Origin: Thalassococcus halodurans
Lineage (GTDB): Bacteria > Pseudomonadota > Alphaproteobacteria > Rhodobacterales > Rhodobacteraceae
Reading direction: 5' to 3'
Length of the DNA stretch: 64,000 nucleotides
NCBI RefSeq assembly: GCF_900108225.1
Contig: NZ_FNUZ01000002.1
Span: forward strand, 250,501-314,500
Under the pieces are notes generated by a model. That model did not search any database. It saw only the letters and a list, made by a program, of their open reading frames with translations, and was not told where the DNA came from. Each line of letters begins with the position of its first letter. The first letter of the stretch is position 1. Positions 4,034 to 27,192 of the stretch are shown here, piece by piece. The position numbers were made by a program, and so were the translations under genes.

Positions 4034-6400
4034 ATGCCAAAGGATCAAGGCATAGGGGCCAGCACGAAGCGCCGCGAAGACGTGCGTTTTCTGACAGGCA
4101 CCGGAAACTACACAGACGATATCAATCTGCACGGCCAGCTGTACGTGCATTTCCTGCGTTCTGATGTTGCACACGGCAAAATCAACTCGGTCGACACATC
4201 CGCCGCATCCGCGATGGACGGTGTTGTGCGCATCTTTACCGGTGCGGATTTCGAAGGCATCGGCGGTCTGCCCTGCGGTTGGCAGGTAACCGACCGTCAC
4301 GGCGAGCCGATGAAAGAACCGGCACACCCCGTTCTGGCACAGGGCAAAGTGCGTCACGTAGGTGACCCGATTGCTGCTGTTGTTGCAGAAAGCGTGCAGG
4401 CTGCGCGTGACGCGGCTGAAGCCATCGAAGTCGACATCGAAGAGCTGCCCGCAGCCGTCGACATGAAAGAAGCGGTCAAAGATGGCGCGCCTCTGGTACA
4501 TGACGATATCGGCACAAATCTTTGCTATGACTGGGGTTTTGTTGAAGAGAACAAGGCTGCGACAGACGAAGCGTTCGCAAACGCTGCGCATGTCACAACG
4601 CTTGAACTGAAAAACAACCGTCTGGTTGCAAACCCGATGGAACCGCGTGTTGCGGTTGGCGACTATAACCGCGCCAACGACGAATCCACGCTGTACACCA
4701 CATCGCAGAACCCCCACGTGATCCGTCTTCTGATGGGCGCATTCGTTCTGGGCATCCCCGAGCACAAGCTGCGCGTTGTTGCCCCTGACGTCGGTGGCGG
4801 TTTTGGTACAAAGATCTTCCACTACGCGGAAGAGGCCTTCTGTACATTCGCGGCTCGTCAGCTGGCGCGTCCGGTCAAATGGACCTCCACACGTTCCGAG
4901 GCGTTCATGTCGGACGCGCACGGCCGTGACCACGTGACCAAGATCGAACTGGCGCTGGACGCAGACAACAACTTTACGGCTCTGCGCACAGAAACCTATG
5001 CAAACATGGGTGCTTACCTGTCGACCTTCGCGCCGTCGGTTCCCACATGGCTGCATGGCACGCTGATGGCGGGTAACTACAAAACGCCGCTGATCTACGT
5101 GAACGTCAAAGCTGTCTTCACCAACACTGTTCCGGTTGACGCCTACCGTGGCGCGGGTCGCCCCGAGGCGACATTCCAGATCGAACGTGTGATCGACAAA
5201 GCTGCACGTGAACTGAACGTCGACCCGATTGCCCTGCGTCGTCAGAACTTCATCACCGAGTTCCCCTACGCAACTCCGGTGGCGGTCGAGTACGACACAG
5301 GCGATTACAACGCGACCATGAACACGCTGGAAGAGATCGCTGATCTGTCCGGTTTCGCTGCCCGCCGCGCGGAAAGCGAAAAGCGCGGCATGCTGCGTGG
5401 TCTGGGTGTGAACTGCTACATCGAGGCTTGCGGCATCGCGCCGTCGAACCTTGTTGGTCAGCTGGGTGCACGTGCGGGTCTGTACGAATCCGCAACCGTT
5501 CGTGTGAACGCGACGGGCGGTATCACCGTCATGACAGGTTCGCACAGCCACGGTCAGGGCCACGAAACAGCCTTCCCGCAGGTCATTTCCGAAATGATCG
5601 GCATTCCGGAAGAGATGGTCGAGATCAAGCACGGCGACACAGCCAACACGCCGATGGGCATGGGTACCTACGGTTCCCGTTCGCTCGCGGTTGGTGGCTC
5701 GGCGATGGTTCGCGCGGCTGAAAAGGTCATCAACAAGGCCAAGAAGATCGCAGCGCACCTGCTGGAAGCAGCTGAAGCAGACATCGAACTGAAGGACGGC
5801 ACGTTCTCGGTTGCAGGCACGGACAAATCCGTTGCTTGGGGTGATGTCACGCTGGCAGCCTACGTTCCGCACAACTATCCGCTCGAAGATATCGAACCGG
5901 GTCTGGAAGAGACGGCGTTCTACGATCCGTCGAACTTCACATACCCGTCGGGCGCGTACTGCTGCGAGGTCGAGGTTGATCCGGACACAGGTAAGGTCAC
6001 AATCGAAAGCTTTGCTGCGGCAGATGACTTCGGCAACATCGTTAACCCGATGATCGTATCCGGTCAGGTTCACGGCGGTATTGCTCAGGGCATCGGTCAG
6101 GCGCTGCTGGAAAACTGTGCCTACGATGAAAACGGTCAGCTTCTGTCGGCGTCCTACATGGACTACGCGATGCCCCGTGCGTCGGACGTACCCTTCTATC
6201 AGGTCGACCACTCGAACGGCACACCCTGTACGCACAACCCGCTTGGCGTAAAGGGCTGTGGTGAGGCTGGCGCGATCGGTACACCGCCTGCAGTCATCAA
6301 CGCGATTGTTGACGCGCTGCGTTCCGGTGGCCACGATCACGTCTACCACATCGACATGCCGGCATCCCCGTCCCGTGTATGGGCAGCGATGCAGAAGTGA
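4034..6400 (+). CDS. coxL: Form II (AYRGAGR-type) CO dehydrogenase-like large subunit
   Basis: This 788-residue protein is the molybdopterin-binding catalytic subunit of a xanthine-oxidase-family hydroxylase. The diagnostic active-site loop at residues 370-376 reads AYRGAGR. Form I CO dehydrogenases carry AYxCSFR with the copper-binding cysteine; AYRGAGR marks form II, so the Cu-S-Mo cysteine is absent. Other family marks are GGGFGTK near residue 256, [13 protein letters not shown] near 497, and [16 protein letters not shown] near 740 with the catalytic Glu. Family knowledge: form II enzymes are common in Roseobacter genomes, but CO oxidation by them is disputed and other substrates are possible. 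GGGAGG precedes the ATG. No cox maturation genes (coxD/E/F) lie nearby. Confidence 0.92.
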
Positions 6401-6407
6401 TGGTCTC

Positions 6408-6431
6408 GGCCCGGGGCACCGTTCCCGGGCC
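6408..6431 (+). promoter_or_regulatory. Strong stem-loop between coxL and coxM
   Basis: A perfect 8-bp GC stem, GGCCCGGG (6408-6415) with CCCGGGCC (6424-6431), lies seven bases after the coxL stop. It lacks a T-tract, so full termination is unlikely; it may set the coxL:coxM transcript ratio. Confidence 0.6.
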
Positions 6432-6490
6432 ACTAACAGAATTGGCCTTTTACGAATGTCCGCATTCAAAGGTCTGAAAGGAGTAACGAA

Positions 6491-7282
6491 ATGTACAATT
6501 TCGATGTAGTGCGCCCGACTTCTGTTGATGAGGCTCTCTCGGCCCTGTCTCAGGAAGACGCACAGGCACTGGGCGGCGGTCAAACGCTGATCCCGACGCT
6601 GAAACAACGTCTGGCAATGCCGACCACACTGGTCAGCCTGTCGGGTATCGACAGCATGAAAGGTGTGTCCGTTGATGGTGGTGTGATCACCGTTGGTGGC
6701 GCAACACCCCACGCGGTTGTGGCAGGTGAGGTTGCAGATGCATTCCCCGCGCTGGCACATCTGGCTGGCAACATCGGTGACCCTGCGGTGCGTAACCGCG
6801 GCACAATCGGTGGCAGCCTTGCCAACAACGACCCGTCCGCATGCTACCCGTCGGCAGCGCTGGCAACAGGTGCCACAATCGTCACCAACGCACGCGAAAT
6901 CGCAGCAGACGACTACTTCCAGGGCATGTTCACCACAGCTCTGGACGAAGGTGAGATCATCACCTCTGTCAAACTGCCGGTTCCCGAAAAAGCGGCTTAC
7001 ATCAAGTTCGAACAGCCGGCATCGCGCTTCTCGCTCGTGGGTATCTTCCTTGCGAAGTACGCAGACGGCGTTCGCGTTGCTGTCACAGGCGCATCGAACA
7101 ACGGTGTATTCCGTTGGGCCGAAGCCGAAGCAGCCCTGTCTGCCGACTTCTCGGTCGCGGCTGTTGAAGGTCTGTCCGCACCCAGCGGCGACGACATGAT
7201 CTCGGATCTGCACGGTTCCGGCGATTATCGCGCGCATCTGGTCAAAGCGCTGACCAAAAAGGCAGTTGCACAGGCCAGTTAA
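6491..7282 (+). CDS. coxM: Aerobic CO dehydrogenase-like medium subunit (FAD-binding)
   Basis: This 263-residue protein is the flavoprotein subunit of the molybdenum hydroxylase. The two FAD pyrophosphate motifs are visible as ALGGGQTLIP near residue 27 (AGGHSL in the type enzyme) and TIGGSLANNDPS near residue 108, followed by the CO-dehydrogenase flavoprotein C-terminal domain. It takes electrons from CoxS and passes them to the respiratory chain. AAAGGAG lies six bases before the ATG. The gene ends the cluster: a strong terminator follows 18 bases after the stop. It is slightly shorter than form I CoxM proteins, within form II range. Confidence 0.92.
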   Translation: MYNFDVVRPTSVDEALSALSQEDAQALGGGQTLIPTLKQRLAMPTTLVSLSGIDSMKGVSVDGGVITVGGATPHAVVAGEVADAFPALAHLAGNIGDPAVRNRGTIGGSLANNDPSACYPSAALATGATIVTNAREIAADDYFQGMFTTALDEGEIITSVKLPVPEKAAYIKFEQPASRFSLVGIFLAKYADGVRVAVTGASNNGVFRWAEAEAALSADFSVAAVEGLSAPSGDDMISDLHGSGDYRAHLVKALTKKAVAQAS

Positions 7283-24407: not shown

Positions 24408-24500
24408 AGGACAAGGGGCGCTGAGGCGCCCCTGACGCGACCGAGCCGCAGGCAAAAAACTAGGGCGGTGAAATGATGAGCTCAGGTTCGCGAGACTTGT

Positions 24501-24527
24501 AAGGGGGCGTTATCGCCCCCTTTTTTT
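24501..24527 (+). terminator. Rho-independent terminator after nrdJ
   Basis: AAGGGGGCG-TTAT-CGCCCCCTT followed by a run of T. A second GC hairpin (GGGGCGC...GCGCCCC) lies at about 24415-24433. This is a very strong intrinsic terminator separating nrdJ from the convergent FIST-like gene. Confidence 0.92.
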
Positions 24528-24534
24528 ATGTGCC

Positions 24535-25521
24535 TCAAGCCGGCTGGACCTGAAGTTTGACCAAGGTCTGGTTCAGCAGGATATACGCGATTTCACCAAA
24601 GGTGACCGGACCTGTGAACTTACCTGTCGATTGGCCCTCCAGCTCGCCATACAGATAGTTCAGGATACAGTTGCACGAATACTGGCTGGCGCCACCGCCA
24701 CCCAGACGTTCGGCAAAGGCATCAGGATAGCTGTCGAGCGGCGCGGCCAGTTGGTATTCGACACCTGTCATCACCGGCGCGTAGAACGACACTTCGTCGT
24801 TTTCCAGATCAATCGCCTGAACCGACACATTGATCAGCGCGCCGCCATAGTTCGCAATCAGCGGCAGGCGGGTGTCGATTTCGTTGTCGGTCAGATAGTT
24901 GGCCAAGGACACAACCTCGCCGTTCACTGTCGCGGTTTTGGCCGAAAAACCATCGCTGTCGAATGTGAAAGTGGTTTTTTTATCATGCCCTTGCGAGAAG
25001 ATGTTGACGATATCCACGCCGATCTTGTTTCCGGCAGGCACAGACACATGCATAACCGCAGCACCGTCTTCCAGTGCTTCGCCGGTTTTGCCGTCGAACA
25101 CTTTGGGTTTCGCTGTCCCCAGTTCTTCCAGATGGACGCCGGAAATCCAGCCCACCAGAGGCTGTCCGAACACCCCAGCATAAGTCTGGCCTTCAACGGC
25201 GAACTTTGTGTGTGCGTCCGAGAAGGCGGGGATCAGGATGATGGTAAAGCCGTTCGGCTTGTAGCCATCCGAGATCGTAACCAAATCGGATGTCGGAACG
25301 GTGCGAACAGAAACGTCGCTGACGTCTTCAAATGTGGTGCAGAATACCTTGTCACGGACAACAGCGCCGCCTTCTTCTGTAACAAAATAAACGGATGTGC
25401 CGCCGACCCAATTTCCTTTTGGCAGCTTTGCAAGAATGGCTTCGTCGCCAGCCACTGTAATGACGTCACCACGTTCGATACGGGCGGATGCTTCTTCAAC
25501 GGTCAGAAGTTCGTTTTTCAT
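24535..25521 (-). CDS. FIST-like domain protein of unknown function
   Basis: This 328-residue soluble protein has no signal peptide or membrane segment. I do not recognise a named enzyme, but its pattern resembles the FIST sensory domain: an N-terminal AKLPKGNWVGGTSVYFV followed by GFTIILIPAFSDAHTKF, and a C-terminal part with YSCNCILNYLYGELEG (about residues 282-297) and FTGPVTFGEIAYILLNQTLV (about 302-321), like the closing Gly-Glu-Ile...Asn-Gln-Thr-Leu motif of FIST_C. FIST domains are proposed to bind small ligands such as amino acids, usually beside kinases or cyclases; here no output domain is fused. It follows a 67-residue gene by 16 bases in one unit. The family call is my inference from motif memory. 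Confidence 0.5.
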   Translation of the reverse strand: MKNELLTVEEASARIERGDVITVAGDEAILAKLPKGNWVGGTSVYFVTEEGGAVVRDKVFCTTFEDVSDVSVRTVPTSDLVTISDGYKPNGFTIILIPAFSDAHTKFAVEGQTYAGVFGQPLVGWISGVHLEELGTAKPKVFDGKTGEALEDGAAVMHVSVPAGNKIGVDIVNIFSQGHDKKTTFTFDSDGFSAKTATVNGEVVSLANYLTDNEIDTRLPLIANYGGALINVSVQAIDLENDEVSFYAPVMTGVEYQLAAPLDSYPDAFAERLGGGGASQYSCNCILNYLYGELEGQSTGKFTGPVTFGEIAYILLNQTLVKLQVQPA

Positions 25522-25537
25522 TTCAATTCTCCGCTCT

Positions 25538-25741
25538 TCAAATGGTGGTCAGTTCCGAAGCCGCGTATTCATTTTCGGCTGCGAATGCATAAAGCTCATC
25601 GGTTTTCGCTCCGAGAGCTCTGGGGGAGTTTTGGACTTCGATCCTCAACCGGCCAACAACAATCCGTGTCGCAAGCGACATGTGGGATAGGTCTTGGTCG
25701 GATTGGAGGAGTTGCTGTAGTTTGGCTTTTGAAACTGCCAT
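25538..25741 (-). CDS. Small conserved-looking protein upstream of the FIST-like gene
   Basis: This 67-residue protein starts at ATG 25741 (MAVSKAKLQQLLQSDQDLSH) with AAGGA eight bases upstream; a longer frame adds ten residues with no ribosome site. It is probably all-helical, with a charged middle (RIVVGRLRIEVQNSPRA) and an acidic tail (YAFAAENEYAASELTTI). I recognise no domain. The good ribosome site, the 16-base gap to the FIST-like gene and normal codon use support a real gene. It might be a partner or regulator of that protein; this is context only. Confidence 0.6.
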   Translation of the reverse strand: MAVSKAKLQQLLQSDQDLSHMSLATRIVVGRLRIEVQNSPRALGAKTDELYAFAAENEYAASELTTI

Positions 25742-25826
25742 TAGTACGTTCCTTCCAGTTGTGCAGCTCACTTGGTGTGCGCTTGAGCAGTTGGAACAAC
25801 GTCTGGGTGAATGGTCAGTTTATGAA

Positions 25827-25852
25827 AAAAGCCGGCGTAAAAGCCGGCTTTC
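25827..25852 (-). terminator. Rho-independent terminator after icd
   Basis: On the minus strand AAAGCCGGC-TTTTAC-GCCGGCTTTTTT forms a 6-9 bp stem with a T-run, 22 bases after the icd stop. Confidence 0.88.
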
Positions 25853-25873: not shown

Positions 25874-27088
25874 TTATCCAGCGAGTGCTTTGTTCAGGTT
25901 CTCATCGAGTTTTTCGAGGAAGCCCATTGTGGTCAACCATTTCTGATCAGGGCCAACCAACAGTGCAAGGTCTTTTGTCATGAAGCCGGATTCTACCGTA
26001 TCGACGACAACCTTTTCCAATGTTGTGGCAAAGTTCATCAGCGGGGTGTTGTTGTCCAGTTTGGCGCGGTGCTTCAGGCCACCTGTCCACGCAAAGATTG
26101 ATGCGATCGAGTTGGTGGATGTCTGTTTGCCTTCCTGATGCTGGCGGTAGTGGCGCGTGACGGTGCCGTGTGCGGCCTCTGCCTCGACGATCTTGCCATC
26201 GGGGGTCATCAACTGCGAAGTCATCAGGCCGAGCGAGCCAAAGCCTTGCGCAACGGTGTCGGACTGCACGTCGCCGTCGTAGTTCTTACAGGCCCAGACG
26301 AAACCGCCGTTCCACTTCATCGCACAGGCGACCATGTCGTCGATCAGGCGGTGCTGGTACGTGATGCCTTTTTCTTCGAACTGTTTGGCAAATTCGTTGT
26401 CGAACACCTCTTGGAAGATTTCCATAAAGCGGCCGTCGTACTGCTTCAAAATGGTGTTCTTGGTCGACAGGTACACCGGCCATTCCAGTTGCAGGCCGTA
26501 GTTGAACGTCGCGCGGGCAAAGTCGTAGATCGATTTGTCGAGGTTATACATCGACATAAAGACACCGGCGTCGGGGGCGTCGAACACTTCTTTTTCGATC
26601 ACCTGACCGTCTTCGCCAACGAACTTCATCGTCAGTTTGCCGGGGCCGGGGAACTTGATGTCGGTGGCTTTGTACTGGTCACCAAAGGCGTGACGACCGA
26701 TCACGATGGGGCGTGTCCAGCCGGGAACAAGGCGCGGGACGTTTTTGCAGATGATCGGAGCGCGGAAGACAACACCACCAAGGATGTTGCGGATCGTGCC
26801 ATTCGGCGACCGCCACATCTTTTTCAGGCCGAACTCTTCTACGCGCGCCTCATCAGGGGTGATGGTGGCACATTTGACCGCGACGCCGACCTCTTTGGTC
26901 TTTTCTGCGGCGTCGATGGTGATCTGGTCTTCTGTGCGATCGCGTTCTTCGATGCCCAGATCGTAGTACAGCAGATCAAGATCCAGATAGGGCAGGATCA
27001 GTTTCTGTTTGATAAAGTCCCACATGATGCGGGTCATCTCATCGCCGTCCATTTCGACGATGGGGTTCTCAACCTTGATTTTCGACAT
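25874..27088 (-). CDS. icd: NADP-dependent isocitrate dehydrogenase
   Basis: This 404-residue enzyme decarboxylates isocitrate to 2-oxoglutarate in the TCA cycle, making NADPH. It belongs to the homodimeric, eukaryote-like subfamily: [13 protein letters not shown] at the start, the substrate loop [14 protein letters not shown], metal-binding Asp residues in RLIDDMVA and NYDGDVQSD, and the NADP-site region [16 protein letters not shown]. The start is ATG 27088 ([10 protein letters not shown]) with AGGAAGGA upstream; an earlier ATG adds 13 residues. A strong terminator follows. acnA, the preceding pathway step, lies 28 kb away. Confidence 0.97.
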
Positions 27089-27192
27089 GGGAGGAGTCCT
27101 TCCTGGGCTGAATTTTCGCGTTTTCATAACGCGGTTCGCTCAGGAAGGAAAGCTTTGTATGCGAATGTATACTGAATTTCTTCAGCCTAGGA

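Follow-up and report, generated by a model that had tools for sequence, protein, structure and literature searches.

DUF6976, a probable distant relative of FIST proteins, and its small, predicted helical partner in Thalassococcus halodurans

FIST proteins and the locus in Thalassococcus halodurans

The characterised bacterial FIST proteins described in the accessible text of the sources, NosP and CdpA, are sensors (PMC12570481, PMC8846402). NosP regulates a separate kinase, as stated in the accessible portion of PMC12570481, and its gene lies beside that of a histidine kinase. FBXO22, which also has a FIST domain, is a ubiquitin-ligase subunit with an F-box; according to the accessible part of PMC11185555, its FIST domain recruits a protein substrate and has no obvious ligand-binding pocket, and the fold relatives of this domain are the chorismatases and the cyanuric acid hydrolases. 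Among publications on FIST domains or FIST proteins, judged by title and the start of the abstract, none dealt with a bacterial small partner; and no mention of DUF6976 or PF22396, the family to which the large protein described here belongs, was found among the literature matches listed.

Two canonical FIST genes are present in the genome of Thalassococcus halodurans itself (loci L165 and L166, on contigs C12 and C9). Each lies between a gene for a LuxR-type response regulator and a gene for a PAS hybrid kinase, so that the arrangement resembles that of NosP and the output is of the LuxR type. The pair of genes described here, from the same genome, is organised differently: its large gene is flanked by icd (beyond the small gene) on one side and by a 1252-aa nrdJ-like gene on the other and, whereas NosP-type FIST proteins have a histidine kinase as partner, this protein is accompanied by a small, predicted helical protein. 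In contrast to FBXO22, the large protein has no F-box. The pair is situated in a stretch of DNA of 64,000 nucleotides (the window, meaning the whole stretch that was analysed, to which positions refer unless a locus is named) and has the following features:

24535..25521, minus strand: large gene with ATG start, 328 aa, Pfam DUF6976 (PF22396), very probably a divergent full-length FIST relative
25538..25741, minus strand: small gene with ATG start, 67 aa, predicted four-helix partner, no known family
25529..25532, minus strand: GGAG, likely ribosome-binding site of the large gene (sequence)
25750..25756, minus strand: GGAAGGA, likely ribosome-binding site of the small gene (sequence)
25825..25851, minus strand: hairpin and T run after icd, between icd and the pair (sequence and RNA fold, -19.8 kcal/mol)
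24501..24522, plus strand: intrinsic-terminator-like site of the convergent nrdJ-like gene, downstream bound of the unit (terminator scan)
24414..24433, minus strand: terminator-like hairpin on the strand of the pair, downstream of the large gene (terminator scan)

The small gene comes first and is separated from the large gene by 16 bases; the positions of the two open reading frames, their lengths of 328 and 67 aa, and this gap are all as given in a preliminary description of the locus. The open reading frame lister begins the small frame at a GTG 10 codons upstream (giving 77 aa), but the ATG at 25741 is preceded by a likely ribosome-binding site. The upstream neighbour on the same strand is icd (25874-27127, Pfam Iso_dh), and the convergent downstream neighbour is the gene of 1252 aa, which we take to be nrdJ. 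Because a hairpin follows icd on the upstream side, and a convergent gene with a terminator-like site lies on the downstream side, the two genes appear to form a transcription unit of their own. The hairpin at 25825-25851 is derived from sequence and RNA fold and is absent from the consensus terminator scan; that scan gave five sites in the region where shuffles led to an expectation of 2.6, and is therefore a weak basis for the hairpin at 24414-24433. The scan of the region for sigma-70-like promoters gave 0 matches, so the start of the unit was not located. An operon with icd was rejected on account of the intervening hairpin; nonetheless, icd is upstream of the pair also in two other loci (L157 and L158).

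Relationship of the large protein to FIST proteins

The large protein is a member of Pfam DUF6976, with a score of 445.3 bits against a cut-off of 27 (E 1e-133) and a match that spans residues 7-326 of 328 and model positions 2-321 of 321. The domain thus fills the protein, which, as had been claimed from the sequence, carries no fused kinase, cyclase or other output domain. The description line of DUF6976 in Pfam reads "family of unknown function", with no mention of FIST or of any small partner. The only other Pfam match of the protein, to Ribosomal_L21e, was far under its cut-off; NCBIfam gave no match; and neither FIST_N (PF08495) nor FIST_C (PF10442) matched the protein up to an E of 10. 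Searching the genome of the window with FIST_C found two other genes, and the large gene was not among them. No convincing relative at the level of sequence was found in the PDB, where the matches to 8pjr and 7ona (SAKe entries; E 7e-11 and 4e-5) covered 20-36 residues with no stretch passing alone, and were taken for artefacts. Profile searches did not, then, place the protein in an unrelated, characterised family, but in DUF6976, outside the Pfam models for FIST.

With hhalign, an alignment of 36 DUF6976 proteins matched one of 16 canonical FIST proteins over 282 columns, taking in both halves (Prob 91, E 1.1e-6). When the alignment was reversed as a control, Prob fell to 0.1 and E rose to 0.48; among 40 shuffles of its columns, the highest Prob was 0.6 and no E was below 0.098. 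A second pair of alignments (28 DUF6976 and 15 FIST sequences) matched over 286 columns, with Prob 77 and E 2.1e-5. The 36 DUF6976 sequences were those kept out of 39, the length filter having dropped L087, L089 and L090 (all two-piece matches); the 16 FIST proteins, of which several are near-identical, were those kept out of 18, L093 and L094 having been dropped by a length filter.

Weaker signals were seen with Pfam models in both directions. In 398 genomes of the phylum of the window, the DUF6976 model gave weak, sub-cut-off matches to two other proteins, both of which contain FIST_N and FIST_C (one of them also PAS and HD), with the match lying on FIST_C. Reciprocally, FIST_C was weakly matched by eight of 28 DUF6976 proteins (best E 0.0042) and FIST_N by two of the 28 (best E 0.0016); in the same table eight other families were each matched by one member, some at a similar E, and the FIST matches are no stronger than these single, chance-like ones (e.g. 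NDH2_C, E 0.0044).

The best match of the predicted fold is a FIST domain, that of FBXO22. The AlphaFold2 model of the large protein is of moderate quality (pLDDT 78.9, pTM 0.76, with residues 299-313 below 50). In Foldseek, the FBXO22 FIST domain came first (E 0.060) and a cyanuric acid hydrolase second (E 0.072), with none of the 451 matches having an E up to 0.001. In VIA-align, the top four were all FBXO22 FIST structures: 8s7d with a Z of 8.6, close to the usual best for unmatched models (200 residues aligned of 328, at 4.2 A), and three further entries with Z 7.6-7.7, followed by chorismatases (6.5) and cyanuric acid hydrolases (5.1). FBXO22 in the PDB was reached by neither the FIST nor the DUF6976 sequence profile; and the chorismatases and cyanuric acid hydrolases, which are enzymes, are similar in predicted fold, with no sequence similarity found in the PDB.

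A FIST_C-like closing motif had been noted in the large protein, and alignment with a canonical FIST tail bears this out: SCNCILNYLYG..TGPVTFGEIAYILLNQT in the large protein corresponds to ACDCILRRLE..GFSTYGEQ..HVNQT in the canonical protein. The canonical tail, from 15 complete examples, can be written [CF][DE]C[ILV][LF]R[RK] ... GF[SN]TYGE[QH] ... H[VILM]NQT, and the DUF6976 tail, from 36 examples, SCNCILN[YF]LYG.LEG ... GP[IV]TFGEIAY.L[LV]NQT. The second Cys of CxC, TxGE and NQT are kept in both. However, the Arg of the canonical CxLR is Asn in DUF6976 (N288, in 35 of 36), and the His of the canonical HxNQT is Leu (L315, in 34 of 36); all 15 complete canonical tails have a His before NQT (that of L024, the 16th, is cut short), against none of the 36 DUF6976 tails. 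DUF6976 is thus not a canonical FIST protein. The His, which is not known to bind heme, may be a marker of NosP-type proteins. The near-invariant polar residues of DUF6976 among the 36 sequences are E310 and T307 (36/36 each) and C285, N288 and H158 (35/36 each), and G36, W38, G41, P98, G124, W125, F308 and G309 are also invariant or nearly so. As conserved polar residues of the C-terminal motif have been replaced, ligands would probably be handled in a manner unlike that of canonical FIST proteins.

Canonical FIST proteins and DUF6976 thus have in common their profile similarity over the full length, the CxC, TxGE and NQT motifs, and a stand-alone, single-domain protein; they differ in length, the large protein having 328 aa and the canonical proteins 377 to 425 aa (except for the multi-domain L024 protein of 882 aa). 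Since four lines of evidence agree, above all the profile-profile comparison (a Z of 8.6 would be weak if taken alone), DUF6976 is very probably a distant, full-length relative of FIST proteins. The preliminary suggestion of a FIST relationship is upheld by the profile-profile comparison with its negative controls and by the weak reciprocal Pfam matches and, less firmly, by the fold: the large protein is related to the Pfam FIST families and is not a member of them. The degrees of confidence expressed here for the FIST relationship and, below, for a complex of the two proteins and for a sensor are judgements rather than computed values.

The small protein and its pairing with DUF6976

The small protein had been described as likely helical, and its AlphaFold2 model consists of four helices, with a pLDDT of 89.9. 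It has no convincing relative in Pfam, NCBIfam or the PDB, and no clear relative in fold among PDB structures (best Foldseek E 5.6, best Z 3.7). To collect its homologues, a profile of the small protein was iterated on the DUF6976 loci, growing from 7 seeds to 28 and then 34 open reading frames. These homologues occupy the same position in bacteria that are only very remotely related. Between close relatives, dN was far below dS (dN/dS 0.09/1.08 for L010 and L011, 0.07/0.49 for L157 and L158, and 0.11/0.71 for L146 and L149), and this, together with conservation over phyla, led to rejection of the possibility that the small gene is a chance open reading frame or an overlap artefact. For the window and L012, dN was 0.46 and dS 1.05, the latter saturated or nearly so; for the window and L010 the values were not computable, and here the small protein is 51% and the large protein 69% identical.

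The small domain was found at 48 of the 53 DUF6976 loci, always on the same strand: upstream of DUF6976 in 45, downstream in two (L015 and L016), and fused to it in one (L081). The 53 loci include close relatives and several loci per genome, and do not represent 53 independent events; a broken gene in genome G233 and contig-edge fragments in G670 and G705 were left out of this number, although the small gene is adjacent by coordinates to both of the contig-edge fragments. The spacing between the domains is 38-128 nt where the small domain is upstream (295 nt in L080) and 41-42 nt in L015 and L016, where it is downstream. In the L081 fusion, the small domain forms the N-terminus of a DUF6976 protein of 411 aa, and the junction contains neither a stop nor a ribosome-binding-like sequence such as the two-gene relatives keep. 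In two loci the small domain is present in multiple copies: the gene upstream in L020 (an Ideonella plasmid) encodes a 373-aa protein with two copies, and that in L069 (7610-9070) a 486-aa protein with four copies and an extra N-terminal stretch, which barely passes the cut-off of DUF772 (a transposase domain). A helix-turn-helix reading of the small domain, arising from a match of HTH_18 to the L069 protein (E 5e-7), was rejected: the match was under the cut-off, with no single stretch passing, and none of 36 small-domain copies scanned singly matched HTH_18.

The five loci lacking the partner are L084, L086, L087, L089 and L090. Three of these (L087, L089 and L090) match DUF6976 in two pieces; L084 and L086 are both from genome G671 and L087 is from G704, and both of these genomes hold further copies with the partner. 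At the level of genomes, of 167 from the phylum to which a Fibrobacterota-type genome belongs, 19 have DUF6976, and 17 of these have the small protein as well (the remaining two, G706 and G710, gave no small-protein match). In the phylum of the window the small protein was present in 2 of 398 genomes, both DUF6976-positive, and in its order in 7 of 131, all among the 15 of 390 that are DUF6976-positive; the genome of the window itself is counted in both the 398 and the 131. In these searches of 167, 398 and 131 genomes, the small protein was never seen in a genome without DUF6976. As five of 53 loci are partner-less and two genomes gave no small-protein match, the large protein is able to occur by itself. 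Distances in the trees of the two partners were correlated (r 0.82 over 48 pairs, the best of 2000 permutations giving 0.17; r 0.71 within the 21 pairs from the window's own group), to which shared descent contributes.

Thus, judged from the genomic sequences, the small protein is a near-obligate genetic partner of the DUF6976 protein, and the two are likely to form a physical complex. The earlier proposal of a stand-alone two-gene unit is strongly supported by the small domain at 48 of 53 loci and by the natural fusion; and the prospect, raised with that proposal, that homologues might lack the small gene throughout did not materialise.

Neighbouring genes, distribution and possible function

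No fixed third gene was seen around the DUF6976 loci, and many of the neighbours are housekeeping genes. Signalling genes occur at some loci. L014 and L084 both have an MCP gene upstream, and L084 also has a response regulator gene on the downstream side; in L022, genes for CheR and CheB are located downstream. Near DUF6976, L083 encodes a Cache-HAMP-SpoIIE protein, L086 a Cache hybrid kinase, L080 a 7TM-HD protein, and L020 both a response regulator and an EAL protein. In L154 and L155, from one genus, a hybrid kinase gene and then a canonical FIST gene (a fragment at the edge of the stretch) are located about 3 kb from the pair; the kinase (L154:9386-11602, L155:119-2311; Pfam assignment for L154) is 54% identical to the kinase beside a canonical FIST gene of the window's genome. 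The preliminary description had the unit standing alone, away from signalling genes. This holds in the window, where the neighbours are icd and the 1252-aa gene, but not for those homologues that lie beside genes for MCP, CheR/CheB, SpoIIE, hybrid kinase or EAL proteins.

A fixed signalling neighbour was rejected, as a tally of near against far neighbours gave no clear excess of signalling families. The near set was made up of the two nearest open reading frames on each side (135 proteins) and the far set of those four to six away (123 proteins): Response_reg was present in 3 of 135 near and 2 of 123 far proteins, and MCPsignal, HisKA and HAMP were each present in 2 of 135 near proteins and were not among the 25 commonest families listed for the far set. 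Confined to the 25 commonest families, this tally is a weak test. It covers 36 of the 53 loci and 135 of 139 near proteins (those left out being the multi-copy partner of L069, a 1724-aa open reading frame of L075, the 1252-aa gene of the window and a gltB-like open reading frame of L154), and the open reading frames were called by simple rules, with no gene finder, so that some will be wrong.

Genes related to 2-oxoglutarate recur by the pair: icd in the window and also, by sequence, in L157 and L158; a gltB-like open reading frame of 1512 aa, recognised by eye, in L154 and L155; and citrate synthase in L015, with two near members in the neighbour tally. This recurrence comprises few independent events and is perhaps due to chance.

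The distribution of DUF6976 is sparse but wide. Over the cut-off, it was found in 3 of 398 genomes of the phylum of the window (the third, G233, having a broken gene) and in 15 of 390 genomes of its order. Two of 61 relatives carry it, and an 80% complete genome belonging to the same genus as the window gave no match. It was also found in the phylum to which an Ignavibacteria genome belongs (5 of 198 genomes), in that of a Calditrichia genome (2 of 40), and on 3 of 72,556 plasmids. These genome counts include the genome on which each search was centred. Carriage by phages was considered and rejected, there being no match in 50,697 phage records and no confirmed case among 19 pattern matches in viral contigs, as was a known defence gene, PADLOC matching none of four proteins up to an E of 1. 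On a Pseudosulfitobacter plasmid, the region downstream of the pair (L018:11062-20972) contains ccdAB and a cluster, resembling a defence island, of genes annotated as CHAT, caspase-family, serine protease and patatin-like.

The best reading of the pair, in which we place evenly balanced confidence, is that the large protein is an autonomous, FIST-fold, ligand-binding subunit and that the small protein is its dedicated four-helix partner, relaying its state; in other words, the products of the two genes would be the subunits of a single device that works autonomously in the cytoplasm. The large and small proteins would bind each other; the FIST-fold subunit would bind a small ligand in the pseudo-threefold fold common to FIST, chorismatases and cyanuric acid hydrolases; binding of the ligand would alter the exposure or the conformation of the helical partner; and the partner would pass this state to a target encoded elsewhere. 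By analogy, the helical partner may take the role that the adjacent histidine kinase has for NosP-type FIST proteins, and the multi-copy partners of L020 and L069 may be arrays of docking modules. The step of ligand binding is weakened by the report, in the accessible part of PMC11185555, that no obvious pocket for a ligand is present in the FIST domain of FBXO22. A sensor is preferred over an enzyme because the characterised bacterial FIST proteins are sensors, according to the accessible text on them, and because some of the homologues lie beside signalling genes. This sensor reading, with its even balance of confidence, has as its main rival an enzyme acting on a small molecule.

In that rival, which is rather unlikely, the fold of FIST, chorismatases and cyanuric acid hydrolases would have turned or stayed catalytic, with the small protein as a stabilising or gating subunit. 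The folds next in similarity after FBXO22 are indeed those of enzymes (chorismatase, Z 6.5; cyanuric acid hydrolase, Z 5.1 and second in Foldseek), several polar residues (E310, T307, C285, N288 and H158) hardly vary across the 36 sequences, and the gene is often found among metabolic genes (icd, gltB-like, citrate synthase). However, the second Cys of CxC, TxGE and NQT are common to canonical FIST proteins, so the conservation may be structural or related to ligand binding, and the metabolic neighbours differ by clade and are repeated in arrangement among relatives, leaving few independent events. It is improbable that the small protein is instead a dedicated chaperone or assembly factor, needed for folding of the FIST-fold protein and with no part in signalling: strict pairing and a fusion would fit any dedicated subunit, a folding helper included, and conservation is lower in the small protein (51% identity between the window and L010) than in the large one (69%), but the multi-copy versions with extra N-terminal regions in L020 and L069 would be unusual for a simple chaperone.

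Least probable by far is a toxin-antitoxin or phage-defence pair, with a small upstream antitoxin or sensor and a larger downstream effector, sporadic and partly borne on plasmids. The order of small gene then large gene, the sporadic occurrence (3/398 and 15/390 genomes), the three plasmid copies and the ccdAB and caspase/CHAT genes adjoining the pair in L018 are what such a pair would lead one to expect, whereas the lack of any PADLOC match (0/4 proteins) or phage-record match, the viral-contig pattern matches being unconfirmed, and the existence of orphan large genes and of one fusion argue against it. We know of no FIST-fold toxin.

If the sensor reading is taken further, the pair may, as a tentative possibility, represent a third mode of FIST signalling: a divergent FIST sensor with its own four-helix relay protein and with neither a fused output nor a neighbouring kinase, constituting a sensory cassette of two genes, complete in itself and moving between distant phyla, with a new ligand and a target encoded elsewhere. 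What is new is the proposed placement of the uncharacterised DUF6976 in the FIST superfamily and its partner, which is not named in the libraries searched (Pfam, NCBIfam, PADLOC and PDB). A fixed, naturally fused cassette lends itself to direct tests, and would reveal how a FIST domain can work without an adjacent kinase. As the genome of the window holds canonical FIST operons in addition to the divergent pair, the two modes could be compared within one cell.

Two minor observations concern individual loci. In L015 (1148-1888), a 246-aa protein encoded two open reading frames upstream of DUF6976 scored 20.3 bits for PilZ, against a cut-off of 22.5. In L023, from genome G233, the broken DUF6976 gene (about 6175-6838) is in three pieces with one in-frame TGA, indicating that the family also decays in places, and an open reading frame near it looks GGDEF-like by eye.
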